38,163 nt of DNA from a virus. A program made the translations under genes and the position numbers. The notes beneath the pieces were generated by a model that worked only from the letters and a program-made list of their open reading frames with translations, did not search any database and was not told the DNA's origin. Position 1 is the stretch's first letter; each line of letters opens with the position of its first letter. Below, one piece after another: positions 3,535-38,163 of the stretch. Location of the stretch: positions 1 to 38,163 of the IMG/VR virus record IMGVR_UViG_3300009509_000056; one strand, written 5' to 3'.

Positions 3535-6500
3535 TCAGATGACCAGCGTCAGCCGGATGTAGTTGCAGGGGTACGGCACATCCAGCGTGACATCGATCAG
3601 CACCGTGTCCGGATTCGTGCTGTCCTGCACGATGTTGTTCAGGTCCCCTCCGATGATCACGCCTGCCTCGGTCAGGAAGCTGAGCTGTCCCTGCACGACT
3701 GTGCTCAGTGTGTCGAGGAACGGCTGGGTGATGTTGAACTTGCCGATGAAGTTCCGCAGCCCACTCCTCATGAACTTCGCGCAGAAGTCCACGACCTTGG
3801 TGATCGACAGCTCTCTGGTCTCGATGCTGGTGAGGTCCGTCGTGAGCTGGTGCCGGCAGGTCAGCGGCCCACCTGCGACGTTCTGGACGACCCAGTACGT
3901 GCCGCCCGCCGCCCCGACGTTCATCTGCCTGGCACTGAAGACGTCGTTGGAGCCGTAGACACCCGTGAAGCCGGTGATCGGGAAGTTGGTGAAGCCCTGC
4001 TGCGGCGGCTGCTGACCCACCATGCCGGCGATGGCCGCGCAGAGGTAGTAGCCCTTGATCCGCTGCTCCAGGCTGTCCACCACCGCGCTGACTTCCTCTG
4101 GCGCCACCAGGACCACGCGGCGATTGTCGTAGGCGTTGCCCAGGTCCTGGTACGCCTGGGCGATGGCCGCGTAGTCCGGGTCGCCGTTGCTGTCCACCAG
4201 CTCCTCGCCCCGGACGTAGATGGAGAAGGTCTCGGAGATCAGCGTCGACGGCAGGTTGCTGCCTGAGTAGAACCCGTCATCGTTCTCCCCCGGTGCGAAG
4301 GCCACGCGCGCCGTGATCTTCGTGCCGCTGATCTGGCTGATGTTCCACTTGCTGTTGGAGGAGGCGATCTTCAGGTAGAGCCCATCCTCCACATCGATGG
4401 TGCCTGTTGGATCCACGCCGGCTGCCAGCACATCGGCCGCCAGGTCTGCCAGCTTGGTGTCGAACTCGTTGGTGACGCCCGTGGAGTCGCCATCCGTGCC
4501 GCTGGTGACCAGACTCGGCACCGCCTCGCCCGGCATCACCGGGTTGATGAAGACGATGCGCTCGCCCTTGGCGTCCGGGTCCGACACGCTCGTGACGTGG
4601 GTCATGAAGAGCTGGTGAACCGTCTCGTCCTGGGTTCCCGGAGCCAGGGCGTAGACCTCCTGGGCCTCCAGGAAGCTCATGGCCCTGCTGTAGCCGTCCG
4701 GCGTGCCCTCCGGGTAGTTGCTGCTGGTCTCATCCACGCCCAGGCCCGTGACGGCGATGCCCGTGGCATTGATCAGCATGAAGTACAGCATCAGAGCCAG
4801 CGGGTTGTCCGTGTTGACCGGGTCGAGCGCGTCGTCCAGGTCCTCGGTGTCCTCCAGGGTGAGGAGGCTGGGGTTGCTCGACCTCTGGGTGACGTCCAGG
4901 CGGAGCGCCTTGTAGGAGATGACGAGCTCGCCGGCCGCATCGATCGGGACTCCCTCGGTGTTGCGGACGAAATCGTGCTTGATGACGATGGAGCCGGAGC
5001 TGAGCACCACCAGGTTGGGGGTTGGGCGGTCGCTGGGCAGCGAGCTCGGGATGTTCTGGGCGATGATGTACATCGACCTCCATCCACCGGTCTTGCTGAT
5101 CTCGCGGTCCAGCTTCAGCTTGGTTGCGTCACCGCCCGGGGAGACCACCGCGATGTAGCCCTTGAAGTCGCCCTCGGCGTAGAAGGCGTCACCGGCCTTC
5201 GGCACGAAGGGAGCGCCCCTCTCGACGTTGTTGTTGGTCAGACCGAGCAGTGTGTTGGCCGTACCGATCCCCACTTCGATCTTGGACTCCTCCCCGTCCT
5301 CGCTCGAGTCGAGGTACAGGAAGTTGGTGCCGCCGCCATCGGAGGCCACTCCCGGGAGAGTGGCGTTGATCTGGGAGATGATGTCCGCCTGGGCGAGAAC
5401 CTGGTAGAGGTCCGCGCCGGTGGCGAAGCCCAGGTCGTCCAGCGCGTTGCCGGCATCCAGCAACACCACGTCCCCGCCGTCCACGATGGTCGGCGCGACA
5501 GCGTCCGTGTAGGCCGCCACGTGGATGACGAACACGATCCTTGTGCCGGTGGCGCTGTAGAGGTAGCCGGCACCACTGTCGCTCTTGTAGCAGACCGGCG
5601 TGCCGGCTGCAGCGTTGATCTGCGCGATGGCCTGGTCGATCGTTGGGGTGCCGGAGAAGGTCGTCTGCTTGAGCTGGCCGTTCACCAGCATCTGCAGCAC
5701 CTGGGTGTCGATGGCCACGCTGGAGTAGTCCGATGTGCCCTTGATGGGATCGCCAACGAACGCGATCTCCTGGAGCTGGCCGCCGTCGACCTGGATCTCG
5801 AGGGTCTTGGTGTTGACCTTGTTGTTGGCTGCCGTGGAGAGGTCTGCCGTTCCCACCATCTGGGCCGAGCCCGGGACCGCCCCGTAGTTCTCGCGATCCA
5901 CCACCACGAACGGCGTCGTGGAGTCACCATCTCCGTCGTCCGAGGCCTCGACGGTGTAGGCCTTGTCCCCATCGGTGAAGCCGATCTTGTCGTGGCAGGT
6001 GTCGGCCGAGGGGGCAACCACCTCGTAGTAGCCCGTCGCGCTGATGGCCACGACCTTGGTCGCCCCAGAGTCCTGGTCGAACGTGATGTCGGTGTCCGTG
6101 ACCAGGGCGTTCATGGCGGAGATCAGGGCGGCGAGATCGGCAGGCTCGCTGGCGAAGGTGTACTCCTGCGTCGAGCCTCCCGGCAGCTTCTTGAAGGCGA
6201 ACTTCTTTCCGTTGAAGAAGCCTGCACCGAAGGTGGCTGCTGTCGGCGCCGTGTAGGCCGCCTCCTTCTTCCGCCGCAGGAAGGACTCCGTGCGCTTGAA
6301 CTCCCTCAGCGTCGTGCCGGTGTTCATGAACACGCGGATGGAGCTCTCGTCGATGTCGATCTCGTCGATGATGCCCCGCGGGTCTGGGAAGTTGAGCTGG
6401 GTGACCGTCAGCTTGTCCTGGCGGTACTTCGACACGCCATAGGCGACGAAGTTGTCGTTGAAGCCCAGGATGCTGTTCGCGGTGCCGTTCAGTACCTTCA

Positions 6501-6942
6501 GCTCCTGGCCATCCCCGCCGGCCGTGGACTTGAGCTGGAGGTACTCGCTGCTTCCATCGACCAGCTTGTAGGCTCCCCAGCCGCTCGGCGCCGGGCTCGC
6601 CGCCGCGATCTGGTCCTTCACCTGCCCCACATCCAGGCCGGCAGCGGTAGGATCGGAGAAGGCGACTTCCCAGGGGGCACCGTTGTTGTAGGTGACCACC
6701 AAGGTCTTTCCGTCCAGGCCACTGTACGGGCCTGGATTGCCGGAGGTCAGGATGGCCGGTACCGACGCGACTGCGTCGGTGTTCATCACCCGGTTGCCTG
6801 TCGCGTCGGCAACCAGGGCCTCGAGGACCTGGAAGCAGGGAGCGACGGCGCAGGGGACCAGCGTCGGGGTCACGATGGTCGGACTGACCGTCCGGAACTC
6901 CTGGATTACCGATACGCCAGGTTGAAGAAGCTCAGTTGCCAT
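3535..6942 (-). CDS. Giant contractile tail sheath protein
   Basis: A 1135-aa protein. The N-terminus begins with PGVSVIQEF, the classic sheath start, and the C-terminus ends with a domain around LDVPYPCNYIRLTLVI, like the conserved C-terminal sheath domain. T4 gp18 is 659 aa, so several hundred residues are inserted. The insert (about residues 75-590) consists of diverged copies of one beta-rich module: a strand pair ending in VAF/TTF, a helix with DQI or QINA, then a strand and a GTAN-x-(I/L)LG(F/L) turn. The same module forms most of the 145-aa protein encoded at 11805-12242. The sheath contracts around the tube to drive DNA injection. G/C-ending codons suggest high expression. The annotation as sheath is firm; the role of the inserts (surface decoration or host binding) is inference. 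Confidence 0.88.
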   Translation of the reverse strand: MATELLQPGVSVIQEFRTVSPTIVTPTLVPCAVAPCFQVLEALVADATGNRVMNTDAVASVPAILTSGNPGPYSGLDGKTLVVTYNNGAPWEVAFSDPTAAGLDVGQVKDQIAAASPAPSGWGAYKLVDGSSEYLQLKSTAGGDGQELKVLNGTANSILGFNDNFVAYGVSKYRQDKLTVTQLNFPDPRGIIDEIDIDESSIRVFMNTGTTLREFKRTESFLRRKKEAAYTAPTAATFGAGFFNGKKFAFKKLPGGSTQEYTFASEPADLAALISAMNALVTDTDITFDQDSGATKVVAISATGYYEVVAPSADTCHDKIGFTDGDKAYTVEASDDGDGDSTTPFVVVDRENYGAVPGSAQMVGTADLSTAANNKVNTKTLEIQVDGGQLQEIAFVGDPIKGTSDYSSVAIDTQVLQMLVNGQLKQTTFSGTPTIDQAIAQINAAAGTPVCYKSDSGAGYLYSATGTRIVFVIHVAAYTDAVAPTIVDGGDVVLLDAGNALDDLGFATGADLYQVLAQADIISQINATLPGVASDGGGTNFLYLDSSEDGEESKIEVGIGTANTLLGLTNNNVERGAPFVPKAGDAFYAEGDFKGYIAVVSPGGDATKLKLDREISKTGGWRSMYIIAQNIPSSLPSDRPTPNLVVLSSGSIVIKHDFVRNTEGVPIDAAGELVISYKALRLDVTQRSSNPSLLTLEDTEDLDDALDPVNTDNPLALMLYFMLINATGIAVTGLGVDETSSNYPEGTPDGYSRAMSFLEAQEVYALAPGTQDETVHQLFMTHVTSVSDPDAKGERIVFINPVMPGEAVPSLVTSGTDGDSTGVTNEFDTKLADLAADVLAAGVDPTGTIDVEDGLYLKIASSNSKWNISQISGTKITARVAFAPGENDDGFYSGSNLPSTLISETFSIYVRGEELVDSNGDPDYAAIAQAYQDLGNAYDNRRVVLVAPEEVSAVVDSLEQRIKGYYLCAAIAGMVGQQPPQQGFTNFPITGFTGVYGSNDVFSARQMNVGAAGGTYWVVQNVAGGPLTCRHQLTTDLTSIETRELSITKVVDFCAKFMRSGLRNFIGKFNITQPFLDTLSTVVQGQLSFLTEAGVIIGGDLNNIVQDSTNPDTVLIDVTLDVPYPCNYIRLTLVI

Positions 6943-13956: not shown

Positions 13957-15081
13957 CTAGTAGATGTCGATGTCCGGGAACACCAGCCCAGCGTCCACCC
14001 GGTTGTTCTCCGCGCCGAGATCCTCCTCCGCCACCGGGATGACGCTGGACAGGATGCCGTCCGCGTCATTGGAAGTCGCATCCCCGGAGTACAGCTCCAT
14101 CTTCCGCACCGACGCGATGTTGATCACCGCCATGGCGATGTCCTCCCAGGACTGCCAGGTGATGAGGTTCGCGATCTTGTCGATGTAGAACTTGGTGTTG
14201 TTGAGGATGTAGAACTTCCCGAAGAAGTCCGGCTTGGTGAAGACGTAGATGTTGCCGGGGCGCAGGATGTCCGTCTTGATGGTCCGGGTGTAGGCCCGAC
14301 CCAGGATCAGGTTGTACTTGTACCCGTCCACCGTGGTCTCGGACTGCACCCTGTCGCCGAAGTCCTCCACCGTCCACTGGAGGATGTCGTCCCAGTCCAC
14401 CTCGGTGATGAGGATCTGCTCGGCGCGGAGGCGCCGGCCATCCAGCATCTTGAAGAGGTTGACGAAGTCCGGCCGCTGGACGGGGTAGACCGTCGCGTCG
14501 TCGGCTGCCGCTGCGCGGGCCAGCTCGCCCTTGCGGACGCTGAACTCCACCACGGTGCCGGCGACGATCGCCGAGGCGTTGAGGGTCGTGACGGCGCCAC
14601 CGTTGGCCTCCGCCTGCAGTGCCTGGACCGCTGCCTCGACGTGGATGAGCCACTCGCGGTCCTCGACCTCCTGGATGTCCTTCACCGAGTTGTCCTCGAT
14701 GACCTTGGTCACCGGCATCTCGTAGGCCAGGAGCTCCTGCTCGGTCTTCTCGAACTTCTCGCTCGAGATGGTGAAGAAGGCGACCTCGGCCCTCGGCGCC
14801 CGGATGAACCGTGCGGTCGGCTGGCCGCGGAAGGTGATCGCCATCGCCCGGCTCTTGGGCTCGACGTCCACGATCTTCACCAGGGTGTCGTGGTTGACGC
14901 TCCGCTGGCAGTCGGCCCTGGTGACCATCTGCGGCGGCACGATCTTGCGCGCGAAGCTGACCTCGCGCAGCCGGTCCCGGATGTAGGTCCCGGCGTACTC
15001 CGCGATCTTCTCCTTCCCTTCGCTGGTGTCCAGCTTCTGGGAGAAGAGATCGTTCAGGATCCTTGCTGGTACGCTGCTCAT
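13957..15081 (-). CDS. Major capsid protein, HK97-type
   Basis: A 374-aa protein. Gene order (protease, scaffold-like, decoration-like, this gene, terminator), strongly G/C-ending codons and its own strong terminator mark it as the most abundant head protein. The N-terminal 30 residues include GKEKIAEYAG, a K-I-A site that could mark maturation cleavage. The region around residues 37-120, with LREVSFARKIVPPQ and later LLAYEMPVTKVIEDNSVKD, resembles the N-arm/E-loop part of capsid proteins of large myoviruses as I know them. The C-terminal half has alternating strands and helices. It would assemble into the icosahedral shell. The HK97 fold is inferred from context and resemblance, not from a search. 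Confidence 0.85.
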   Translation of the reverse strand: MSSVPARILNDLFSQKLDTSEGKEKIAEYAGTYIRDRLREVSFARKIVPPQMVTRADCQRSVNHDTLVKIVDVEPKSRAMAITFRGQPTARFIRAPRAEVAFFTISSEKFEKTEQELLAYEMPVTKVIEDNSVKDIQEVEDREWLIHVEAAVQALQAEANGGAVTTLNASAIVAGTVVEFSVRKGELARAAAADDATVYPVQRPDFVNLFKMLDGRRLRAEQILITEVDWDDILQWTVEDFGDRVQSETTVDGYKYNLILGRAYTRTIKTDILRPGNIYVFTKPDFFGKFYILNNTKFYIDKIANLITWQSWEDIAMAVINIASVRKMELYSGDATSNDADGILSSVIPVAEEDLGAENNRVDAGLVFPDIDIY

Positions 15082-18729: not shown

Positions 18730-20676
18730 CTACCACCGCACCGCCCCTAGCGCTCCCTTTGCTGCGCCCAATGCGCCGCCGAGCAATTTGGACGGTGCTT
18801 TCGATCCTGCGAGATGCAGCCCACCGAGTCCCGCCGCCAAGGTCGTGACCATGGGATAGTCAGCCATGAACTGTGTCACCCGCCCAATCGGTGCCCTTGC
18901 TCCCTGCATCGCGCGCTCTTTCTGATACTGTGACCAGCGCGACAGCAGATAGCCGCCACCAGCAGCCCCCAACAACAGTCCTGGCTTGATCCCGGCCGAT
19001 ACCTTTTCCAGCTCATCACCCACACTCAACCCGTGTACTGCCTCCCAGAGATCAACATTTTCCTCAAGAACCCGATCTGCGCCAAGCATGCATCCCACTG
19101 CTTGGTCGAGATAACCGTTGTAGGCTGCTGCGACCTTGTTCAGCAGAGCATCGTTCTCAACGCGATCAGGTGTCCTTACTTCTCCTTCAACCGGTTTCGC
19201 ACAAACCGTGATCCTAACGATTCTACGTTTGATGACCGGGTCGAAGCAACTACGATTCGACAAGAACGGCATCAGCAGGTCTTTGAGCGACGGACTGAAT
19301 CTGTCTGCACCCATCGGGACAGATCTATCGATGTCGGTCGCTGGCGAAAAGACCTGACCATTCCCGTCCATTTCGTCAGCCAGAGGCTTATTCCCCAACC
19401 TGACGATCGTGATTCTTTGGAACTCCCGCGGCTTCAGCAGAATGCCCATCGAGCTGGGAGTAGACAGAGCCTCGCTCAAATCGCTCTCACCAAGTCGATC
19501 GAGGACCTCGTTGGGAAGGTCTGGCTCTATGTTCTCCAGTGGCACGGCCTTGCTACCAAACTGCGAGGGTACGGTATCCTTTATAATCTCCGCGCCCTTG
19601 CTGTGGGAAGCTCTTTTTTGGACCGCCGCCTTGATTGCAGCAACCTTCGATACAGGGACAGCACTCGGCGCGGCAATGACTGGAGCCTCACTCTTCGTCT
19701 TCTTCCTGATCTTGTAGGCCGTAGCTACCGCCTTCTCAACCGCCTTCGGGCGATACCAGGCTGCCGCCTTCTCGAAGTCCTTGTCAGTGGTGGGCTGATC
19801 GTATCCCATCATCTCGGCAATTTTCCAGGATGGGACAACATATATCGACCCCCCAGTATATGCCCCCGCCAGTTTTGCCATGACTTTTGCTGTCTTGTCC
19901 GCGCCGATGAACACGAAAGACAGATCAAAGAATCGCGGGTAGTCGTTGATCATGTAGACCTTTCGACCATCCGGCAAGATCTTGTTCAGCATCTCCGTGA
20001 GATGCTCGCAATAGTCATGGCGTGTTGGGGACAGGCCTCGAATCGGATCGATCTTGTGCCAGGCCAGCACTGCTTTGCCGACCGTAGGATGAATCCGCGG
20101 GTCGAATGTGGCCTGGGCGCGGCGGTACTTGGACCAGTCTGTGCAGATGGAGCAGAGATCGTAGGGAACACGACAACCCATGCTGACGTCTGGGAACTGC
20201 CCAGCATCCAGCTTGTCCACCACGTCCTGGGCCGCCACTTTCTCTGCTCTGGCTCTGTCGATCGCGATGATGAGCTCGACCCGCCTCATGTGCGGGTGCC
20301 ACACCGCTAGGATGACGTCGCCGAAAGACTTCGCCGGGTCCTTGTTGACGTGGTGCTTGAATGGATGCGCGCCGTAGAAGGTCTTGTAGCCGTAGTCGGG
20401 GCCCTCGTGGATGAGGGAGGCCTCTGGGAAGTAGTCCCCGTTGATGTTCGAGCCCCAGTATTCCCCTGCGCCCAGGGCGTTGACCAAGATGTAGAGCTTG
20501 CCTGGATCAGCCCTCAGCCCCTCTAGGAACTTCTGCACCTCGGGAAGCATCGGCGCGGCGGTCTTGTGCATGCCAAAGAACTGCGCCGCACCATCGATGT
20601 CACCAGGCTGGAAGATCTGGACGAGCTTCTCGCCCTGATCCCTCCTAGCCTTGTACTGACAGACCTTGGTGATCAT
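18730..20676 (-). CDS. Prohead maturation protease with long C-terminal extension
   Basis: A 648-aa protein. Residues 60-255 match the herpes-assemblin-like prohead protease fold. His108/109 precede NKDPAKSFGDV. The VSMG nucleophile motif puts the catalytic Ser at 165. FFDLSFVF carries an Asp at 251 where other family members have the acidic third residue before S-x-V. CSIC (175-178) and DYCEH (about 221-225) may bind zinc within the domain. After residue 260 follow KTAKVMAKLAG, several further K-x-A motifs, an acidic and beta-rich middle, and a C-terminal part with Gly-rich hydrophobic segments. Classical prohead proteases are 200-250 aa, so about 390 residues are extra, perhaps a fused scaffold or core domain. 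The protease assignment is confident; the extension's role is unknown. Confidence 0.85.
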   Translation of the reverse strand: MITKVCQYKARRDQGEKLVQIFQPGDIDGAAQFFGMHKTAAPMLPEVQKFLEGLRADPGKLYILVNALGAGEYWGSNINGDYFPEASLIHEGPDYGYKTFYGAHPFKHHVNKDPAKSFGDVILAVWHPHMRRVELIIAIDRARAEKVAAQDVVDKLDAGQFPDVSMGCRVPYDLCSICTDWSKYRRAQATFDPRIHPTVGKAVLAWHKIDPIRGLSPTRHDYCEHLTEMLNKILPDGRKVYMINDYPRFFDLSFVFIGADKTAKVMAKLAGAYTGGSIYVVPSWKIAEMMGYDQPTTDKDFEKAAAWYRPKAVEKAVATAYKIRKKTKSEAPVIAAPSAVPVSKVAAIKAAVQKRASHSKGAEIIKDTVPSQFGSKAVPLENIEPDLPNEVLDRLGESDLSEALSTPSSMGILLKPREFQRITIVRLGNKPLADEMDGNGQVFSPATDIDRSVPMGADRFSPSLKDLLMPFLSNRSCFDPVIKRRIVRITVCAKPVEGEVRTPDRVENDALLNKVAAAYNGYLDQAVGCMLGADRVLEENVDLWEAVHGLSVGDELEKVSAGIKPGLLLGAAGGGYLLSRWSQYQKERAMQGARAPIGRVTQFMADYPMVTTLAAGLGGLHLAGSKAPSKLLGGALGAAKGALGAVRW

Positions 20677-23940: not shown

Positions 23941-25779
23941 TTAGCCATGGAACTTGGGCAATCCGTCCTCCTGCATCGGACGAACGAGGTCTGTCCTTGG
24001 GTGCTTGATCATGCTGGCGAGCAGGCAGTACAACATGGAGTGGAATGTGTCGTCCGTCTTGCCCGGGGACTTCTTGTACTCCAACATCCGGAGCTGGTTG
24101 TTGTACTCACTGAAGATGTTGAGGCAGTCCTGGCCGTAGGGATCGAAGAACTGGTCCCAAGACGGCAGGTCGATCTGCTTCCGCTTGATCATCGTAAAGA
24201 GGAGAGTCATGACCTCAGTACGGTGGCACATCCAGCGAAGCAAGTTGGGTTCCCAGTACACCATCTTCTTCTGCCTCGGGTTGTACTGGAACTTCATGAC
24301 CTTCGCGGGGCCGAAGCGCCTGGTCAGGGTATCGTTGGGATGGAATCCACCACCGTAGTCCACTCCACAGATCTGCACGTCGAGCTGTGCCAGCATCTGG
24401 GAGATGAGATCGAGCTGCCTCTCCGGCTCGAGGTCCTGTCCGGTGAAGCGATGAGTCCAGAAGATGGTGAAGTTGCCTCGGCCGACGTAGCCGCCGAAGG
24501 AGATGACCGTGTAGGTGTTCTCACCAGTGCCCCAGTCTATCCCAGCAAAGACCTCGCGGCCGCGCATGACGTACTTGAAGTGCTCGATGTCGCCTAGTCG
24601 GATCTCTTCTTTACAGCAAGCCTTGAGCTGGCCCCTGGTGATGGGACGGATGCCGGAGTCGTAGGAGAGTCCGAGCTTCTCGTTGTAGAACTGGGCTCTA
24701 GGATACTGCTCCTGCGCCTGCAGAATCTCGATCCAATCCACCCACGGCACCATGATCTGGGGGATGCGGTAGCCTTCGAAGGTGACCTTGTCTTTGTTGC
24801 TCTCGGTCGGTGGGTTCATGGACACCCACTTCGCCTCCGGGTGCTTTGCGTTGATCAGCTCCTTGCACTTGTCGCAGATCAATCCCTTCTCGCCTATGTT
24901 ATCCTCACCCAGGATATTCCAGTGCCAGCTCGAGGGATTCTTCGGAGTGCCGCACCGCTCACACGGCACAGCCCACTCGTTCTGCGTGGAGAAGTTCGAC
25001 CAGTAGTGCTCGATGGTGTTGTCTTCCGACTTCGGGGTGCCGGAGTAGACGAAAAGCTTGTACTTGGAATGGAATGCACACTGCTCGATGATCGGGATGT
25101 TGTCGATGAGAATGTCCTGCAACTCGTCGATCTCGATCAGGTCAGCGGGGATTCCACGGACGCGGTCAGCGGTGAGGTAGGCGTAGCGCAGGCGGATCTG
25201 GGAGAAGTTGATGAACTTCTTGAAGAAGACCGCCTGGTTCAACTTGGTCGTGACGTAGGCGCTGAGGAGCGGAGAACACTCCATCACGTCTTTGATCCGG
25301 TCGTTAGAGAAGACCTTTGCCTGCTCCGCAGAGGGTGCCACGTACAGCGTTCGGAAGTTGGTGTTCAAGCAGGAGTAGCAGAACAGCCGGTTGCCCAGCG
25401 TGGTGGACTTCTCCACCTGCCTCCCGCACTTGAGTAGCAGTCGGTCCGTGGGAGTATCGTAGATTCTCCTCAGATACTCACGACCCTCGAACCTGAAATC
25501 GGAAATGCGCCCGGCTTCCGGGATGCGGATTGCTGTCTCAGCAAACTGGCTGGGAGTGACGTCGTAGATGAACCTGCTGACATCGAGGTGTTGGAGATCG
25601 TCGAATGCCGGATCCGGCGGCTCGACATCGAACTCGTAGAGCCTGGGGTTACCTTCATCGTCTAGATCAAACCACGGCTCCTTGATGACCTTCCCACCCA
25701 TGTCCCAGGCAGAGTAGACCAGCGGCAACGTATCAGCCGACTGGATGAGACTGACCTGGGCGAGGTCGATCACGGACAT
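23941..25779 (-). CDS. terL: Terminase large subunit (TerL)
   Basis: A 612-aa DNA-packaging motor. The ATPase half has an unusual Walker A at 118-126 (CGRQVEKST, with Glu where Gly is usual), Walker B LIEIDE at 214-219 and a coupling motif SGT at 246-248. A four-Cys zinc ribbon (Cys273, 276, 302, 305) is inserted between the ATPase and nuclease halves. The RNase-H-like nuclease starts at AGIDWG with Asp415, continues with VDYGGG Asp474 and ends with a DDTFHS acidic pair near 576-577. It cuts and pumps DNA into the prohead through the portal. The ATG lacks a clear Shine-Dalgarno site, unlike most genes here, and follows a 273-bp noncoding region. The family call is secure. Confidence 0.93.
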   Translation of the reverse strand: MSVIDLAQVSLIQSADTLPLVYSAWDMGGKVIKEPWFDLDDEGNPRLYEFDVEPPDPAFDDLQHLDVSRFIYDVTPSQFAETAIRIPEAGRISDFRFEGREYLRRIYDTPTDRLLLKCGRQVEKSTTLGNRLFCYSCLNTNFRTLYVAPSAEQAKVFSNDRIKDVMECSPLLSAYVTTKLNQAVFFKKFINFSQIRLRYAYLTADRVRGIPADLIEIDELQDILIDNIPIIEQCAFHSKYKLFVYSGTPKSEDNTIEHYWSNFSTQNEWAVPCERCGTPKNPSSWHWNILGEDNIGEKGLICDKCKELINAKHPEAKWVSMNPPTESNKDKVTFEGYRIPQIMVPWVDWIEILQAQEQYPRAQFYNEKLGLSYDSGIRPITRGQLKACCKEEIRLGDIEHFKYVMRGREVFAGIDWGTGENTYTVISFGGYVGRGNFTIFWTHRFTGQDLEPERQLDLISQMLAQLDVQICGVDYGGGFHPNDTLTRRFGPAKVMKFQYNPRQKKMVYWEPNLLRWMCHRTEVMTLLFTMIKRKQIDLPSWDQFFDPYGQDCLNIFSEYNNQLRMLEYKKSPGKTDDTFHSMLYCLLASMIKHPRTDLVRPMQEDGLPKFHG

Positions 25780-26052
25780 GGATCTATTCTACCGCAAGAG
25801 ACAGAAGTGAAAAGGTATAAGTAGAATCGAAGGGAGAGGCACGTACCCTTCACCCACTAGCTGGTGGTCCACGCGGTGCAGCGGACTTCCTGGCTTGATC
25901 CGAGTTCCCTGGGTCCTTAACTTCGTACAGCGTACAATGGCCAACGGACCAGGGCAAAGGTTCATATCTGTGGGAGACCCGTGCCCAAGGGGGGCCGTTT
26001 GGCTGTTGTAACGCCCGTCATTTTTGGCTGACCGGCGCAAGCCGGTCCCAAT
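25780..26052 (+). ncRNA. Structured noncoding region, candidate RNA or packaging site
   Basis: It is the longest stretch without a credible gene. It holds several inverted repeats: GAAGGG/CCCTTC (25829-25851), CCCTGGGTCC with GGACCAGGG (25907-25954, one bulge), GGGCA/TGCCC (25952-25986) and GACCGGC-GCAA-GCCGGTC (26030-26047). The last has a GNRA tetraloop only when read on the plus strand, and a GTATAAGTA promoter-like element precedes the first hairpin on that strand, so a plus-strand RNA of about 220 nt is my preferred reading. As the sequence just upstream of TerL it could also be a pac or cos site or a TerL leader. It does not fit tRNA or tmRNA. Confidence 0.4.
25815..25823 (+). promoter_or_regulatory. 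Second copy of GTATAAGTA element
   Basis: This 9-mer is identical to the one before the plus-strand gene near 22.7 kb. No plus-strand gene follows it; instead it precedes the hairpin-rich noncoding region, which is why I read that region as a possible transcript. Promoter activity is inferred. Confidence 0.45.
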
Positions 26053-29553: not shown

Positions 29554-30843
29554 CTATGCCGGGGGTAGGAACACCCGCTTGCTCACTACGAGGTCCAGCA
29601 GCGCCTCGGTCAACGGCTCCTTGGTCAGCACCACCGCATCGACAGGCGGAGGGATCGGGACTTTGTGGGTGTGAGTCCTGAGCCATGCCACCAATTTTAG
29701 TCCAAGAACCGCCGGCTCGGAAGCCACTTCGTCACCTAAGTTCAGCTTGGCTGCCCGGATGGTCTTGACCGAGGCGATGTCCTCCTTGCTCGACGCCGCC
29801 TTCAGCTCGTGACTGCCGGTGACAGTCGTACTGTCAGTACCGCCCACTGTAGTGGTGCGACTTCCTTTGACGGAGATATCCTGGTTGCCGGAGACCGTCA
29901 ACTTATCCGCGCCCTTAACCTCCACAGTCCGCTTCCCAGCCTGCATGAGGTAGGTGTTTCCGGACTTGTCGATCCTGATCACATACTCCGGCGTACCACT
30001 CACCTTGCCATCATCCGCAGCGATGCTCTCTGGCGCAATCACCACCTCGATGAAGCTCGTATCCCCACCGGGTGGCTTGTCTGCCTTCTCCAGTGACCCT
30101 ACACTGATCTTGATCGACGCCTTCTTGTCCTGGGCATGCTCCCTGGCTAGCAGAACCAGCTCCGTGGGTGCGTCACCGGAAGGGTTGTCATCCTGACGCA
30201 ACGTCTCCCAGGAAAGCGAACCTGCTGCGGTGTTCAGCTCGTAGTTCTCGCAGAAGTCACGGATGAAATTGCGGATGGGGAGATAGATGCGCTGAGCAAT
30301 CCTGGTCGCTCCGATCTGCAGCACCCCACCACGCCGGAGAATGACGAAGTTCTCGTCGCGACCCTGCCACAGCATGTCCCCCGGGTTGAGCATCGGTCTA
30401 CCAGCACGGTAGCTGGCATCTGACAGATTGGCAGTCGGCGCAGTAGACCCCCCAGAAGTAGTGCCCTTGGTCTTTGCCTGCCCTTCCTCCGCCTCCTCAG
30501 TCTCCGTCTTTGGATCATCGATCCGCCTGGTCACATCTCCAACCTCAGCTCCCTCTAGCTCCGGTGCAGCCAAGAACCCCATGACGAAAGGAGACTCGTC
30601 ATCTGATGGGAAGCACAGAACACAGATGGCTCCGGTCTCTGGGACGCAGGTGAAGCCCTCGCCGTTGTTGTAGTGAAGGTACGGCACCATGATCTGGATG
30701 TCTGTGATCTGCTTGCCGGTGTATTGAGAGACCCAGTCAATCGTCAGGTTCTTGACGTTGACGTTGGCAACCACGCCCGTCTCGACCCATGCGGGCTCGA
30801 GCCCTGACGTGGCCAGAGAGTTGGAGAAGGTCGAGCCAGGCAT
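29554..30843 (-). CDS. Baseplate spike protein, gpV/gp5-like
   Basis: A 429-aa protein. Residues 22-94 form an OB-fold typical of gpV, gp5 and VgrG proteins: GVVANVNV, a strand ending QIMVPYLHY, and GAICVLCFPSDDES. A charged, disordered linker (95-150) follows, then a mixed domain with ILRRGGVLQIGATRI. Residues 298-350 are short beta repeats such as VEVKGADKLTVSGNQDISV, the pattern of a trimeric beta-helix. A THTHK motif near 393 resembles the His-containing end of such spikes. It would sit at the tip of the tail tube and pierce the outer cell surface. No lysozyme domain is inserted, unlike T4 gp5. The ATG directly abuts the upstream stop. Confidence 0.82.
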   Translation of the reverse strand: MPGSTFSNSLATSGLEPAWVETGVVANVNVKNLTIDWVSQYTGKQITDIQIMVPYLHYNNGEGFTCVPETGAICVLCFPSDDESPFVMGFLAAPELEGAEVGDVTRRIDDPKTETEEAEEGQAKTKGTTSGGSTAPTANLSDASYRAGRPMLNPGDMLWQGRDENFVILRRGGVLQIGATRIAQRIYLPIRNFIRDFCENYELNTAAGSLSWETLRQDDNPSGDAPTELVLLAREHAQDKKASIKISVGSLEKADKPPGGDTSFIEVVIAPESIAADDGKVSGTPEYVIRIDKSGNTYLMQAGKRTVEVKGADKLTVSGNQDISVKGSRTTTVGGTDSTTVTGSHELKAASSKEDIASVKTIRAAKLNLGDEVASEPAVLGLKLVAWLRTHTHKVPIPPPVDAVVLTKEPLTEALLDLVVSKRVFLPPA

Positions 30844-31272: not shown

Positions 31273-34200
31273 CTAATACTCGAACTTGTCTTTCCCTCTG
31301 CCGATCTCTGCCCCGAAGGCAACAGCCGGTATGGGGTGCTTACCGTGGAGACGACTCGTCCATCCCTGCTGCGCAGCCTCCGTGATGGTCTGGTGCAGCC
31401 GCTCGTGGTTGAGCTTGGCCTGCCAGTCTTCCTGCATGTCCAGTGGCAGCACATCCACTCCCTTCAGAACTGGCACGTGCCTGATTGGCGCCTTCCCTTT
31501 CAGTACCGTTCGATTTATCTTAGCGATTCTTGAGTGCGGTGCAAAGTCCCCACGTATGAACTCGCCGTGATCTCCAGGATCCTCCACCCTGGTGAGGTTG
31601 GTCAAGGACTTCACCACCACTTCCGCATTCCGCCTACGTATTCCCTCACCTGCGAAGAGTCCGTGCAGTTGATTGGTCAGATGGCCCTGTACTTTCTCTA
31701 TGCCAGTGAGTGGAAGCATCTCTCTGGGATTGATGTCTCCGGTCGAGATGGGATCTCCCTGCCTCACCGACATCCCCTGGCGGAGCGCCCTCCCGTTGTG
31801 TGTTGGGGTGCCCAACTTGTTGGGTACGTAGTGGCGCTGTCCGCCGATGAAGACGTTGTGCCCGCCTGCTGGGTCGCGCTGGATCTCCTCCACCTTTCCT
31901 CCCACTGTGGCGAGAGTAGCAGATCCAGGCAGCGTCTTCGGGAAGCGGAACATCTGCTTCACCCTGGTGAAGTCGTCGACCAACCCCTCTTTTGTGGCGA
32001 CTGTCCCTCCCGTGTGGAACGCTTTCATGGCCAGCTGAGTAGTCCGCTCACCCAAGGCCTGGCCGGCCAGCACTCCGACATTCAGTCCACGTTCCGGTTC
32101 CCTACCATCCTCCGTCAGGCCGTAGCACTTCTTGCAGATACCCGGTCCGTGGTTGCACCGCAACGGAGATCGCACCGAGACTCTTCCCACCTTGTTGTTC
32201 CTCAGCGAGTTCCTCACCTCCGGGGTGATCAGCGTGCCTGCTGGAAAGGTCTTCTTCCCGACCTTGATCGGAGTGGCCAGGTACCTATCGAGCAGATCTT
32301 TGTCGTCTGTGGCCAGCGCGACGCCCTTATCGGTCCCACAGTCATCGTCGAGGATGACGTTGTCCATCACCGAGTTCATCACCTGCTTCGAGATGTATCC
32401 GGGCTCTTGTACGGACTGGACCTTCTGGATGATGCCTTTGCGGGCTCCGCTCATGGAGGTCCAGTAGTCGGAGATGTCCAGTCCCTCTGAGTAGGACTTG
32501 CGCACAGGAGATGGAATGACCTCGCCTTTGGCGTTGGCGATCAGCATCGGTGCCATTTTGATCTGCCGCAATGTGTCCGTGTAGGGCTTGATGCCAGAAC
32601 GATTCATCGTGAGCAGGTTGCTCTGTGACTCTGGCATCTGATCGAGGCGCCTCATCATCTCCTGGGTCGCTGCATCGTACACCTTGATCGCTCTAGCCTC
32701 CTTCGCCTGGGCCGTGCCCGGCCCCGCCATGGCCTTCGCTACCTCCTTGTCTGCCTTCGCCATGATAGAGGAGCGCAGCGCCTTCTCGGGCCTGATATCA
32801 TCCAGACCCAGGGAGAACGCGGTCTCTGTTGCCCAGCGATTGCCCAGATCCTTGAGCTTGTTGACCGCCTCTCCGTAGTCATTCCGGTAGTTCTTGGCAA
32901 GGTCGGTCAGCAACGCCTTCTGTTCCTTGCCACCCAGCGGCTTGTTGCCTCTGACAAAGGCTGACCGCATGTCCTCCGGCAGGGCCTCGCCAACCATCAG
33001 CCGACCAGGCGTAGACTTGATATGCCCGACACGCACCTGATCAGTTAGCCCGACGGTGCCGCTATCAACAGCCCGCTTCATCTCATCCACGTTTTTGAAT
33101 GAGAGGTTCGTCCTCTTGCCGATCTGCGTCGCTCCATACAATCCTAGCTGGCTCTCTTGCGACGGTGTGTACATGACGTTGCCAGTGGCTGGGCTGAAGA
33201 GGTTCCTGGAAGGCATCATCTTGTGCGCCTCCTCCACCGCTTCCTTGCCCACAGGGACGAAAGCCGCCATCGTATCGCCGTCGAAGTCCGCGTTGTAGCC
33301 CGAAGTCACGAGCGGATGAATCTGCACTGCCTTCCCGCCTACGATCCTCGGCTTGAATCCCTGGACGTTGAACTTGTGAAGCGCGGGGTCGCGCTTCAGA
33401 AGTACCGGCCGCTCAGACATCACTCGCTCGAGCGCCTTGTCGACGATGGGCTGCCCCTCCTTGATCGCCTGCTGCGCAGCCAGAGGCGTCAGGCCGGCCA
33501 GCGTCCGTAGTTCACGGACAATGAAAGGCTTGTAGAGCTCGCGCGCCGCGTCTCTGGGCAGCCCCACCTCGTCCAGCCCCAGAGCCGGCTCTGGGATGAT
33601 GGTGGAACGCATGGAGAGATCTTGCTTCCTCTGCACCAGCTTCTTCTGGAAGAACCCCTCCTTGGGCGGGCCAACCTTCTGCCCTGTCTCCCGCTCCGGC
33701 TTCTTCCCAGCGATGATATCCAGGATGCCGCGGAACTCCCTGTTGGCATGACCACCGATGCCCGTGAGAGACTTGAGGCCATCGTAGACCTCGGCTCTGA
33801 TCTCGTTCTTCTCTTCTTCCGGCAGGAGAGGAGACATCGTCTTCAAACGTCCGGCAGACAGAGCTATGCCCTTATACATGTGGTTGAGATCATCCACATT
33901 GAGATCGCCATTGGGCAGCTGAGAGAGTGGACGCATCGACGGCGGCATGACCGGCACGTTCTGCACCATGTAGGCGTCCTTGGCCGTCAGCCCTGCCTGA
34001 TTCAGTGCACTGAGGTACTTGACCTTCTTGTGCGCCCGATCCAGCCGATTACCTTTGAGGCCCGGAGCCTGAAGAGCTTCTTGCGCTGCCTTGAGCTCCT
34101 TCTGCACGTCGACCTGACCCAGCATCGCTGAGAAAGCCTGGCCGCCAACCAGTCCTTTGTCTGGACTGACGAACTTGCCGGTCTTTGGATCGTAGCCCTG

Positions 34201-37200
34201 TGTTCCAGCGATGACCTGGTTGTACTGCTTGCCGGTGATGCCAGTGAGCGACTGGATCGATTTCTCGAACAGCGGATTCGGCATCGGCTCCGGTAGCTTG
34301 ATGTGTCCCCACTTCGTTCCCTCCATTCCGCCAGTCACGGAGGGATCGAACAATCCATGCTTCTCTGGCCGCAGGTCCTTGGCGCGGACCATCTTGCCGC
34401 CGTCTTTGATCTCTCCGTTGCTCATCTCCTTCACCTGCTGATCTGTGAAAGGAATGAGCTGGAGATTGTTGCCGTCCTTCCTGACGTTCAGGCCCAGACC
34501 ATTGAGGTAGCCGAGAAACTTCTTGTAGGCGAAGGTCGGGCGTGGTGCTGGAAGTGGCTCGCCGGCCTGCAGCGCGGACCAGAACTCGTCGTTCTGTCCA
34601 GCGTCGCTCTTGACGGTCTGCATCTCGCGAAGATTGGCCTTCGCTCCGTGTGCGAGCATGGAGTAAAGGCCGAGGGTCCCCAGGGCCTGAGCACCATGGG
34701 GACCCCCGCCCTTTGGCACCAGGTTTCTGTCGTACGCGTAGCCAGGACCGCCAGCCCTGGCGACCAGCTTCTTCTCGACCTGGTGCTTCAGCTTGACGAT
34801 GTGCTGCGGCCCCACCAGCGCCTCACCCAGTGGGCGATTGGTGATGGGGTCGATGACCGTTTCCTTGTCTGTCAGACCGTGGGCCTTGAGATCATTCGAT
34901 ACCTGTGCGTGCAGGTCCGAGTCTGGTAGAAAGTTCTTGACCTTGTACGGCTTGCCGGTCGCCTCAGCGATCTTTCCAGCTGCAGTCTCCAAGATCTGAC
35001 CGAGATTGGTGCGGCCAGGGACGCCAGTTGGATTCATCAGCACGTCGATCTGTTTGCCAGCCACAGTTCTGGGCATCTCTCCATCAGGTACGATCTTCGT
35101 CACGATGCCCTTGTTTCCATGACGGCCCGCCAGCTTGTCTCCCACCTCCATGGGTTCGATAGTCTTCACGTGGACCGCAGTCTTGCGACCACGCTTGACC
35201 ACTTCCTCTACCACCCCGGCGTGATCTCCCTCCCACCTCACGCTGTCATCCCTGAACGGCTTGACAAGTGACTTATGCAGGCGCGCAAGCTCTTTGTCCT
35301 CCACCCGGTCAGTCTTCTCGCGTAGTGCTGCAATGAGCGTGTCCCCAGGCATGACCCTCATACCTGGTTTGATCACACCATCATCGTCTAGCTTTTCCGA
35401 TTGCTCTCTGGTGAGCGCGTCTGGAACGTAGGCCTGGAACTTCTTCTTGCTGAGGACATGGCTGCTGTCCATGTCCAGAGTCTTGCGATGGAGATGTTCA
35501 CTCGACAGCCGCTGCGCTGCCCGCTCGCTGATCACCACACCATCCTCGTAGTTGTACCCCTTGAACGGCATGTATGCGGTGCGGAGATTCGTGCCCAGCG
35601 CAAGGACTCCATCCTTGGTGAAGTTGGTGTCCGCTACTGGCTGACCCTTCTTCACAGTGTCGCCTACCTTCACCGTCGGAGTCGAGTGGAGGAACCCCTT
35701 GTCTGCATTCAGCGGGAAGTTGTTGTAGAGCTGAACCTCATGGCTCTTGCCGCTGGCATCCTTGATGTAGACACCGTCCTTGGTGACCTTGGACACCGTG
35801 CCCGATACCCTGGCGTTGTGCCCAGCGTACCCTCCCATCACCTCGTCGAATGTCTTCGTGCCGGCCAGGCTCTGCACCAATGGCGCCTGCCTGTCCACCA
35901 GGCCGATGGCCTGCTCCATGTGGCGGCCAGCCATGGTGCTGCGCGCCGGGTGATCTGCCGCGATGAACGGCACCATGTTCGACCCGATCGAGAACATCTG
36001 GATTGGATCGCGCATGACGTAGTCGGCTTTGCCCAGAGAACCCTCAACGATCTCATTCCCAGGGCCGCTCATCTTCACAGTCCGGCCCAGCGGCTTCGGC
36101 TTTCCCTTTTCCCATGAGACCTGATCCGGTAGAACGACGTTGGACTGCATCGCCTTTTCCGGATTCACATCCACGAGCTTGCCCTTCTTGACGTCGAACA
36201 TCTTCACGGTGACGTCGTGCCCCTTCTTCTTGACACCGATCGGCAAGCGAAGGCTCACACCCGTGGCCTGGCCCTCTGGTGTATGGATAGGATCGAGGTA
36301 GCCAAGATGTGATGGGTCGATCAGCTTTGCTTCTTCACTGATCCCATGCGCACTCTTGATGCCGCCTTCGCCAGTGATGGTCGTCTTCATCTGGCCGGAC
36401 ACCATCTCCAACGGGTTCGTCTGGTCTGGGATGTTAGCCAGGGACGTGCGGAACATGGAGTTCACAGGACGCTGGAAGATGTCGGGGCCGACAATGTCCA
36501 TCACCCTGTTCCTGCGGTCGATGTTGTTGCCGAGCCGGCGCATGATGTCGTGCGTTCCCTTCTGAATGCGCTCGGCAAAGAAGTCCTCGGTGGAGTGAAG
36601 CTCCTTGAACGGCAGAGCATCACGGGCATCGGGCTGGGCTTTGCCCTGGCTGATCCGCAGTAACTTGGTGGCGGCATCGAACAGGGCGGGACCGGTAACC
36701 TGCTTGTACTCCTTGCCCAGAGTCAGCTTGGTGGTCTCAGGCATGATCTCTGTCCCACGGAAGGTGTCCATGAGATGCTGTCTAGCCTGTCCCACATCCG
36801 TAGCCTTCTCTCCAGTGGAGGCCTTGTAGAACTTCATCAGCGCCTGTTCACCGCTCTGCTGGTTGGCGCCGGAGATCTGCTTGCCCCATTCCCTGTCGAT
36901 CTGTTCTTGCCCCACCCCCATCTCGCGAAGCAGTGGTTGTAGTGGGATCTTGGAGGTGCCGTACTCCATAACGAACTGGCGTGACTCCGGGTCGAAGTTG
37001 AGATCGAACCCACGGCCCTTCCGGAGATTGAAGAAGGACTCGAGCTCGCCGTTGTCCCGCACCCTGGCATAGATGCCAGACTTCAGACGCCACTGGTTAT
37101 CGATCTGGTACTCCTGACCTTCCTTGATCTGAGTGTAGCGGCGCGTGGTCTTGGGGAGAGTGAACAGCCGAAGATGCTGGGAGTCCACTTTCTTGCCGGT

Positions 37201-37431
37201 GTCGTTGTCAACCAATGACACCTTGGCTTCGACCGGCACGGCCCAGTCCCTTCCACGGACTTTGGCCTGCTTCTGAGATCGGATGTCGTCGATGTGAAGA
37301 TTGTCTTTGACCGCGACGTTGTCGAGCTGCAGGGTGTGCTTCTTTCCCACTACGGGAAAGAGGCCACTGACAGTCTCTGTTACCCGGTCACTGAGAGCCT
37401 TGAAGCCCTCTTCCGGTGACAGACGAGCCAT
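31273..37431 (-). CDS. rpoBC: Single-chain fused beta-beta' RNA polymerase
   Basis: A 2052-aa DNA-dependent RNA polymerase. Residues about 1-1000 are beta-like: PDQTNPLE at 335 (rifampicin region), IHTPEG, ADHPARSTMAGRHM near 493, GYNYEDG near 626, GDKLAGRHGNKG with Lys766 and Lys774, and REMQTVKSD near 937. Residues from about 1010 are beta'-like: HGLFDP start, clamp helices near 1175-1220, LLKRDPALHK with Arg1347, NADFDGD with catalytic Asp1382, 1384 and 1386, a bridge-helix region near 1658-1697, Zn2 cysteines 1698, 1759, 1766 and 1769, and trigger-loop MKAFHTGG with Lys1803 and His1806. The spacing Arg1347 to Asn1380 equals that in E. coli beta' (425-458). The beta' N-terminal zinc ribbon is missing. 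AGGAG precedes the ATG. No alpha, omega or sigma gene is visible in the window. Confidence 0.97.
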   Translation of the reverse strand: MARLSPEEGFKALSDRVTETVSGLFPVVGKKHTLQLDNVAVKDNLHIDDIRSQKQAKVRGRDWAVPVEAKVSLVDNDTGKKVDSQHLRLFTLPKTTRRYTQIKEGQEYQIDNQWRLKSGIYARVRDNGELESFFNLRKGRGFDLNFDPESRQFVMEYGTSKIPLQPLLREMGVGQEQIDREWGKQISGANQQSGEQALMKFYKASTGEKATDVGQARQHLMDTFRGTEIMPETTKLTLGKEYKQVTGPALFDAATKLLRISQGKAQPDARDALPFKELHSTEDFFAERIQKGTHDIMRRLGNNIDRRNRVMDIVGPDIFQRPVNSMFRTSLANIPDQTNPLEMVSGQMKTTITGEGGIKSAHGISEEAKLIDPSHLGYLDPIHTPEGQATGVSLRLPIGVKKKGHDVTVKMFDVKKGKLVDVNPEKAMQSNVVLPDQVSWEKGKPKPLGRTVKMSGPGNEIVEGSLGKADYVMRDPIQMFSIGSNMVPFIAADHPARSTMAGRHMEQAIGLVDRQAPLVQSLAGTKTFDEVMGGYAGHNARVSGTVSKVTKDGVYIKDASGKSHEVQLYNNFPLNADKGFLHSTPTVKVGDTVKKGQPVADTNFTKDGVLALGTNLRTAYMPFKGYNYEDGVVISERAAQRLSSEHLHRKTLDMDSSHVLSKKKFQAYVPDALTREQSEKLDDDGVIKPGMRVMPGDTLIAALREKTDRVEDKELARLHKSLVKPFRDDSVRWEGDHAGVVEEVVKRGRKTAVHVKTIEPMEVGDKLAGRHGNKGIVTKIVPDGEMPRTVAGKQIDVLMNPTGVPGRTNLGQILETAAGKIAEATGKPYKVKNFLPDSDLHAQVSNDLKAHGLTDKETVIDPITNRPLGEALVGPQHIVKLKHQVEKKLVARAGGPGYAYDRNLVPKGGGPHGAQALGTLGLYSMLAHGAKANLREMQTVKSDAGQNDEFWSALQAGEPLPAPRPTFAYKKFLGYLNGLGLNVRKDGNNLQLIPFTDQQVKEMSNGEIKDGGKMVRAKDLRPEKHGLFDPSVTGGMEGTKWGHIKLPEPMPNPLFEKSIQSLTGITGKQYNQVIAGTQGYDPKTGKFVSPDKGLVGGQAFSAMLGQVDVQKELKAAQEALQAPGLKGNRLDRAHKKVKYLSALNQAGLTAKDAYMVQNVPVMPPSMRPLSQLPNGDLNVDDLNHMYKGIALSAGRLKTMSPLLPEEEKNEIRAEVYDGLKSLTGIGGHANREFRGILDIIAGKKPERETGQKVGPPKEGFFQKKLVQRKQDLSMRSTIIPEPALGLDEVGLPRDAARELYKPFIVRELRTLAGLTPLAAQQAIKEGQPIVDKALERVMSERPVLLKRDPALHKFNVQGFKPRIVGGKAVQIHPLVTSGYNADFDGDTMAAFVPVGKEAVEEAHKMMPSRNLFSPATGNVMYTPSQESQLGLYGATQIGKRTNLSFKNVDEMKRAVDSGTVGLTDQVRVGHIKSTPGRLMVGEALPEDMRSAFVRGNKPLGGKEQKALLTDLAKNYRNDYGEAVNKLKDLGNRWATETAFSLGLDDIRPEKALRSSIMAKADKEVAKAMAGPGTAQAKEARAIKVYDAATQEMMRRLDQMPESQSNLLTMNRSGIKPYTDTLRQIKMAPMLIANAKGEVIPSPVRKSYSEGLDISDYWTSMSGARKGIIQKVQSVQEPGYISKQVMNSVMDNVILDDDCGTDKGVALATDDKDLLDRYLATPIKVGKKTFPAGTLITPEVRNSLRNNKVGRVSVRSPLRCNHGPGICKKCYGLTEDGREPERGLNVGVLAGQALGERTTQLAMKAFHTGGTVATKEGLVDDFTRVKQMFRFPKTLPGSATLATVGGKVEEIQRDPAGGHNVFIGGQRHYVPNKLGTPTHNGRALRQGMSVRQGDPISTGDINPREMLPLTGIEKVQGHLTNQLHGLFAGEGIRRRNAEVVVKSLTNLTRVEDPGDHGEFIRGDFAPHSRIAKINRTVLKGKAPIRHVPVLKGVDVLPLDMQEDWQAKLNHERLHQTITEAAQQGWTSRLHGKHPIPAVAFGAEIGRGKDKFEY

Positions 37432-37557
37432 GGCCCACTCCTATGTCTTCTAGGTGTTGAAAATAACAGATCAATCCCCGATCAGTCAACGAAATATTAC
37501 ACAATGATTCCGTTATAAGGGGAATGAAGCACAAACCGTTAACCTGGAGGTGAAATT
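37432..37557. promoter_or_regulatory. AT-rich divergent promoter region
   Basis: This spacer is far more AT-rich than its surroundings. Toward the plus strand GTTATAAGGGG (37512-37522) shares TATAAG with the two GTATAAGTA elements. Toward the polymerase gene the minus strand reads TTGTGTAATATTTCG, with a TAATAT -10-like hexamer. GATCA occurs twice (37468-37484). AGGAGTGGGCC is the polymerase ribosome-binding site and GGAGGT serves the plus-strand peptide. Exact start points cannot be given. Confidence 0.5.
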
Positions 37558-37701
37558 TTGAACTTCGGACCCGAAGACGAGGAGGAGCAAGACCAGGGCT
37601 ACGACCAGCAGGACGACACCTCCGACAATGGAGGCGACTCCTGCAGCGATTTCGAGTCCGACCTGGACTCGCAGATCGATGACGCGGACGAGGAGGGCTA
37701 G
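37558..37701 (+). CDS. Very acidic 47-residue peptide, TTG start
   Basis: TTG lies 6 nt after a GGAGGTG site; the in-line GTG would meet a stop after two codons, which supports TTG. The product begins NFGPEDEEEQDQGYDQQDD and is almost entirely Asp, Glu, Gln, Ser and Gly with one Cys. Very acidic small phage proteins can act as DNA mimics or bind RNA polymerase, and this gene is divergent to a polymerase gene, but that is only suggestive. It ends in a TAG followed in frame by another open stretch. Confidence 0.6.
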   Translation: MNFGPEDEEEQDQGYDQQDDTSDNGGDSCSDFESDLDSQIDDADEEG

Positions 37702-37878: not shown

Positions 37879-38163
37879 ATGTGCAGGACTCTCGACCCCG
37901 TAGATCCCAGCGAGACTTGTCTTGTCTGCGGTAAGCCATTCAGCAATCGCCCGCTCGTCAGATTCGAGATGGGCGAGTACGCGATGAGTAGGAAGAAGGG
38001 GTACCCAGACTTCCAAGTAGATGAAGAAGAGGGAGGGCCGCAGTACTTCCACTTTGACTGCGTGCTATCCCGCATGGACTTCCCAAACAGCGGACTCGAT
38101 GGGCGGTGCGGCGTGTGCGGCGATGAGCTAGAGCACGAGATGGTGGTCTACAGATTGACGTAC
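37879..38163 (+). CDS. Zinc-finger-like protein, 3' end cut by window
   Basis: The ATG is preceded by GGAGAAGATCA. The visible 95 residues contain CLVCGKPF near residue 14, HFDC near 58, and CGVCGDELEHE near 76, a spacing consistent with one or two small zinc-binding domains of the treble-clef type. The middle is charged and acidic. It starts 16 nt after the terminator, so its promoter may overlap the terminator or transcription may read through. The function is unknown; nucleic-acid binding is a possibility from the motifs. Confidence 0.7.
   Translation, partial: MCRTLDPVDPSETCLVCGKPFSNRPLVRFEMGEYAMSRKKGYPDFQVDEEEGGPQYFHFDCVLSRMDFPNSGLDGRCGVCGDELEHEMVVYRLTY

Follow-up and report, generated by a model that had tools for sequence, protein, structure and literature searches.

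Fusion of the two large RNA polymerase (RNAP) subunits into one chain, β followed by β', is known from the rpoB-rpoC fusions of Helicobacter and Wolbachia, whose fused enzymes retain the α and ω subunits and the zinc ribbon. Among viruses, the mReC are RNAP-encoding Caudovirales known from metagenomes, with bacterial-like β and β' that stand apart from cellular RNAP (Weinheimer & Aylward 2020, PMC7481178). The RNAPs of the phiKZ and AR9 jumbo phages have no α or ω, and a virion form exists (PMC7598289, PMC13282480). Described here is a phage gene encoding a fused β-β' RNAP of bacterial type as a single chain of 2052 amino acids (aa). It lies in a 38,163-base IMG/VR virus record (IMGVR_UViG_3300009509_000056, positions 1 to 38,163), classed as linear and probably a fragment, the whole of which is referred to as the window. 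On balance, we favour the reading that this fused core and a phage σ factor form an α-less holoenzyme that is carried in the virion and starts early transcription at promoters of a shared motif.

Architecture and conservation of the fused polymerase

The gene is one open reading frame (ORF) on the minus strand (31273..37431), running from an ATG at 37431 to a stop at 31273, and AGGAG lies a few bases 5' of the ATG. The initial annotation had read this frame as a single phage polypeptide with β before β', and the domain order agrees. Pfam places Rpb2 domains 3 and 6 ahead of Rpb1 domains 1, 2, 3 and 5 (the Rpb1 domain 1 match being below the curated Pfam cut-off), and the PDB and NCBIfam searches likewise return β domains and then β' domains in the single chain. 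The bacterial NCBIfam models score 509 bits for rpoC (residues 1080–2030) and 297–343 bits for rpoB, versus 96–136 bits for archaeal models (archaeal A', 113 and 96), and the profiles favour a bacterial over an archaeal type. Alignment with E. coli RpoB and RpoC, together with AlphaFold models, assigns residues 1–984 to β (34480..37431, minus) and residues 985–2052, with the stop codon, to β' (31273..34479, minus). The junction is tight, the final β helix (KKFLGYLNGLGLNVR) continuing into the first β' strand (KDGNNLQLIPFTDQQ) with no linker domain. Structure prediction, suggested in the same annotation, gave halves that resemble the bacterial subunits. The mean predicted local distance difference test score (pLDDT) is 85.1 for residues 1–1130, best matched in the PDB by a bacterial β (template modelling (TM) score 0.68 by query length), and 85.6 for residues 985–2052, best matched by a bacterial β' (TM 0.85).

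Residue conservation was assessed in an alignment of 49 intact fused homologues with E. coli RpoB and RpoC. The active-site lysines K766 and K774 (GDKLAGRHGNKG; 35110..35136, minus), equivalent to K1065 and K1073 of E. coli β, and the three aspartates of the catalytic Mg site NADFDGD (residues 1380–1386; 33274..33294, minus) are kept in 49 of 49. Also invariant, in E. coli numbering, are β R678, Q688, D814 and R1106 and β' R425 and H936, the last being H1806 of the window chain at the start of the trigger loop (residues 1795–1812; 31996..32049, minus). The Zn2 cysteines C1698, C1759, C1766 and C1769 (32125..32340, minus) are each kept in 44–46 homologues. The active-site motifs first noted as intact are thus present, whereas its description as complete has to be qualified. 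None of the 49 has the β' N-terminal zinc ribbon, which is also missing from the aligned phage sequence t2. Compared with E. coli, the fused RNAP further lacks ~120 residues of the β lobe region, the inserts β SI2 and β' SI3 and 41 residues at the C-terminus of β'. The enzyme is probably insensitive to rifampicin, because H526 and S531 of the rifampicin pocket are replaced by Gly and Thr, respectively.

Two scans of IMG/VR returned 31 and 80 loci, amounting to ~85 distinct contigs that carry the fused chain at 34–75% identity, some of them partial or nearly identical and several of 170–198 kb. The compact single-chain enzyme of the initial annotation is therefore one chain, as claimed, but not a lone case; it belongs to a large clade in which cultured relatives have the chain partly split. 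An assembly or frameshift artefact, or a chance ORF, is ruled out because the homologous frame stays open in each of the ~85 contigs and is broken at contig ends only. Two further fused-RNAP contigs (L155 and L156) were binned in bacterial metagenome-assembled genomes, one labelled Candidatus Eisenbacteria, which is possibly a host hint or a binning error.

Some homologues carry an extra 1–1.5 kb near residues 387, 768, 816, 942, 1386, 1769 or 1807. An interpretation of these segments as frame breaks was rejected, as the inserts are in frame and six of the eight scanned contain LAGLIDADG homing-endonuclease domains. Two of those six also gave weak intein-splicing matches, and two inserts of L020 had no Pfam match. 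Given their frame, the endonuclease domains and the weak splicing matches, the inserts are read as inteins at conserved sites, NADFDGD among them. They occur in L011, L019, L027, L028, L033 and others, with up to four in a single gene (L028, a 3596-aa frame). The terminase ORFs of two related contigs, G002 and G004, are 963 and 1038 aa long, versus 612 aa in the window, and perhaps carry inteins as well.

Loss of the zinc ribbon and of parts of the β lobe could signify that the fused protein is a virion component that no longer has polymerase activity. Such a protein would be hard to reconcile with catalytic residues that are all invariant across the observed range of identity, or with inteins at active-site positions, and we consider this explanation very improbable.

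Phylogeny and split relatives

Partly split forms of the polymerase occur in cultured phages. Salmonella phage Arash and Vibrio phage D69 encode a β-β'N fusion of ~1525 aa and, apart from it, a β'C of ~606 aa. In Vibrio phage D181 (L036) the β-β'N frame has an additional interruption, and a homing-endonuclease gene sits between the annotated ORFs. Vibrio phage D148, judged from the hit table, shares this layout. Database records name the Arash-type gp206 ‘subunit beta’ or ‘hypothetical protein’, the Arash record using ‘subunit beta’ only. In contig G061 (L353) the RNAP gene is divided into at least three ORFs, and a downstream ORF starts inside the β C-terminus and crosses the junction into β'. 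A survey of IMG/VR for the NADFDGD motif found at least 120 stretches. Among the matches listed, 23 have the fused arrangement, four of them ending ~95 residues past the motif as in Arash, and 44 have a separate or split β', the remainder being truncated or lacking an RNAP match. In a related set of contigs the RNAP genes are separate, and several members of this set carry two β genes. Loci L354–L360 and L364 (contigs G062, G063, G065, G066 and G068) are on tailed-phage contigs with β and β' separate and unsplit; several of these contigs have β genes of ~1000 and ~1370 aa, which suggests two multisubunit polymerases in one virus.

Trees were computed with FastTree on β, β' and both joined, and with IQ-TREE (LG+F+R4, 39 taxa, 1843 columns), on a sample with few bacteria and zero archaea. 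All trees unite the fused, Arash-type and L353 sequences in one clade (FastTree 1.0; ultrafast bootstrap (UFBoot) 100). The trees do not resolve the branching near the base, the divergent L256 (28% identity) being placed at UFBoot 38. The RHph_TM30 and Carin-5 proteins, used as queries, returned zero viral relatives. Because the Arash type branches from within the fused lineages, and because the L353 ORF keeps the β C-terminus together with the junction, fusion is probably the older, ancestral state and splitting came later.

The bacterial-type profile scores and the order of β before β' would also suit the view that fused host genes, of the kind found in Helicobacter or Wolbachia, were captured recently. 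However, in the IQ-TREE analysis the sampled bacteria and the fused family each form their own clade (UFBoot 100 for both), and a stem of 0.57 separates the bacteria from all phage RNAPs. Furthermore, the window RNAP reaches 519 of the 5372 bits and 454 of the 4632 bits set as cut-offs for the Helicobacter and Wolbachia fused models (~2,840–2,890 aa), or about one tenth. Recent capture from bacteria together with motif decay, named in the initial annotation as the outcome of a tree that would overturn it, is excluded for the sampled bacteria by the separate clades, the long stem and the invariant catalytic residues, and the probability of recent capture is considered negligible.

Candidate σ factor, promoters and virion packaging

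Genes for partner subunits were sought by profile search. No α-type RNA_pol_L domain was found in 21 viral records, Arash and D69, the two positives being bacterial genomes, and ω gave no match above cut-off in 16 related records. Sigma region 3 was found in 17 of 20 related records, in 11 of the 20 above the Pfam cut-off (Sigma70_r3). Seventeen loci encode one σ family, whose uncultured members are 28–58% identical to that of G004. The phage σ matches SigA regions 2–3 with E = 2.9e-10, and sigma region 2 alone is below the Pfam cut-off for the Arash σ (gp10) and its G004 orthologue. The gene order gp6-gp8-σ is common to Arash, G001, G002 and G004. By these matches, a gene of predicted σ70 type is conserved in the related records.

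Counting of 8-mers in the noncoding DNA of related genomes, observed versus expected, revealed a common promoter-like motif, GNAA-N16-GGTATAAG. The 8-mer GGTATAAG ranks at or near the top, with 21 copies versus 0.2 expected in Arash, 17 versus 0.1 in G017, 20 versus 1.1 in G004, 9 versus 0.3 in G014 and 5 versus 0.3 in G001, and D69 has the variant GTTATAAG (15 versus 1.2). In controls without the fused RNAP (200 kb of G066 and 50 kb of Carin-5) GGTATAAG is at about chance level. The fused-RNAP contig G018, which is without a σ match, has zero copies of GGTATAAG and is instead enriched in TTCATGTT and ATCAAGTT; it perhaps uses a different promoter system. In the uncultured genomes, and independently of the 8-mer, AA is present at −18/−17 in 58 of 73 intergenic sites (background 5.8%; p = 8e-58, a value that assumes independent sites, some of which are common to related genomes), and in G017 alone A occupies these positions in 20 of 20 and 19 of 20 sites. 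T followed by G or A is favoured at +13/+14. As read from the sequence, these positions are spaced as a −35 element and a start site would be. The motif sites lie on the strand of the non-structural genes in 30 of 31 cases in Arash and in 17 of 17 in D69.

Two candidate promoters of this kind are present in the window. The first, GAAA-N17-GTTATAAG (37491..37519, plus; 1 match versus 0.01 expected), is divergent from the RNAP gene and precedes two ORFs, either of which is possibly an early gene. One is a presumed gene for a 47-aa acidic protein with a TTG start and GGAGG upstream (37558..37701, plus), and the other contains two CxxC pairs and runs off the window end (37879..38163, plus). The second, GCAA-N16-GGTATAAG (25794..25821, plus; 1 match versus 0.00 expected), lies just upstream of the terminase gene and points away from it, and a motif in this place is found in 22 of 37 related records, 13–36 nucleotides (nt) from the terminase start. 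In the window (25794–26056, plus) and 21 other records the motif is followed by an unconserved stretch and then, mostly, by a CCGGC hairpin at the stop of the converging gene. No Rfam match to a non-coding RNA was found behind this promoter, folding was no better than that of shuffles (z −0.43), and conservation of the stretch does not extend beyond the motif and the hairpin.

Evidence on packaging comes from phage Arash. In tandem mass spectrometry (MS) of its purified particles, gp206 (β-β'N) was the most-detected protein, with 3516 spectra and 128 unique peptides, and gp216 (β'C; 1210 spectra) and the σ factor gp10 (467 spectra, 24 unique peptides) were also detected, while a second σ, gp196, is not in the virion MS table; gp6 and gp8 are virion proteins (PMC10585845). 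The word ‘promoter’ is never used in that paper (PMC10585845). Virion presence of the polymerase is thus published for the Arash orthologue only.

In the mechanism that we favour, a single-chain β-β' core of bacterial type would work without α and ω, the covalent link between β and β' replacing the assembly role of the α dimer. The core would pair with the phage-encoded σ70-family protein, and both would be packed in the virion and enter the cell with the DNA. The holoenzyme would then start the early, non-structural genes at GNAA-N16/17-G(G/T)TATAAG promoters, with transcription beginning ~6–7 nt past the hexamer. We infer enzyme activity, pairing of core and σ, recognition of the motif by the holoenzyme and injection, and, by analogy, that the window virus behaves as its relatives do. 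The chance is about even that this is a two-protein holoenzyme that is injected and uses its own GNAA-N16-GGTATAAG promoters with zero host subunits, which would place it among the smallest cellular-type σ-dependent systems.

Several observations weigh against this mechanism. The window ends short of any σ gene, and the two AlphaFold halves were predicted apart. G016 has a σ match yet almost no GGTATAAG, and motif copies are few in G002, G003 and G006. The Arash authors caution that abundant enzymes may merely stay in the particle preparation (PMC10585845). Lastly, σ-contact residues of the clamp helices show no position-by-position conservation in the alignment, and the phage σ could serve the host RNAP instead. 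Under that explanation the σ factor and the GGTATAAG promoters would belong to host transcription, in the manner of the well-known phage σ factors that redirect host RNAP (T4 gp55, SPO1), and the fused core would use another, unrecognised initiation factor. However, the motif and σ occur repeatedly in phages that differ greatly in GC content, share the fused-type RNAP and probably infect different hosts, core and σ are found together in Arash virions, and alignment and model both show a clamp-helix hairpin and a flap-tip-like helix in the fused RNAP. Service to the host RNAP is accordingly judged quite unlikely.

The carry-over raised by the Arash authors would also accommodate a fused enzyme made after infection for middle or late genes, with host RNAP transcribing the early ones; the proteins detected in Arash particles number 116 and include many enzymes (PMC10585845). 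Against this stands the position of the RNAP gene in a virion-gene block. In Arash it adjoins the portal gene. In the window such a block had been proposed from the outset, and minus-strand genes matching it are close by. They encode a gp5-like baseplate/tail protein (29554..30843; Pfam and PHROG matches), a GpA-type terminase large subunit (23941..25779; PF05876, phrog_675), a protein weakly matching a head maturation protease (18730..20676; phrog_18299), a major head protein (13957..15081; phrog_2522) and a tail sheath protein (3535..6942; phrog_279). A post-infection polymerase is given a small but appreciable chance.

Comparison with known polymerases

Arash (gp206 and gp216) and the Vibrio phages D69, D181 and D148 are the nearest counterparts, sharing with the fused group the clade, the joining of β to β', an orthologous σ, a related motif and syntenic virion genes. 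In the Arash/D69 type the part of β' beyond the active-site barrel is encoded by a second gene, whereas the window RNAP is one ORF. A break at this point of β' is found in phiKZ-type and cyanobacterial enzymes too (PMC7598289), and split phage polymerases could therefore in principle come from fused ones. The phiKZ and AR9 RNAPs differ from the single chain of the window in having four to five polypeptides and no sequence-recognisable σ (PMC7598289, PMC13282480).

The deep-branching Caudovirales lineage mentioned in the initial annotation is mReC, but its description, the basis of the present comparison, has a Gp23-type capsid and no fusion (PMC7481178), whereas the window head protein matches phrog_2522. 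Gp23 (PF07068) was found in 0 of 14 fused and 0 of 2 Arash-type records and in 2 of 7 separate-gene contigs (G066 and G070). For this reason mReC as described is a better fit to the separate-gene contigs than to the fused group, and some fused contigs may belong to the mReC set.

Single-polypeptide enzymes, some of them in virions, include gp66 of crAss-like phi14:2, gp64 and gp96 of P23-45 and YonO, but these enzymes are very diverged, and gp66, gp64, gp96 and QDE-1 fall in a second RNAP clade (PMC10770324). The crAss-like enzymes are not recognisably similar to bacterial subunit profiles (PMC7481178), against which the window RNAP scores hundreds of bits. Cobetia phage Carin-5 and Yersinia phage GN1 also encode phage β and β', but as separate genes with β' first and on a different branch; Carin-5 has an annotated σ gene directly upstream of its RNAP genes and keeps the zinc ribbon.

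Within openly searchable papers, no description was found of a phage bacterial-type β-β' fusion with its own σ70 factor and promoter. If the favoured mechanism is true, this would be an α-free, single-chain relative of bacterial RNAP that has kept σ-dependent initiation, and the roles of α, ω and the zinc ribbon would become testable in a two-protein system, for which a defined promoter, a σ factor and the cultured cousin Arash provide material. In evolutionary terms, fusion would have come first and splitting later inside one phage clade. Bacterial β-β' fusions, single-chain and multisubunit-type phage polymerases and mReC are known already. What this locus and its relatives add is a σ70-type gene conserved alongside the fused core, a common promoter-like motif and a link between the fused core and the Arash virion MS data.

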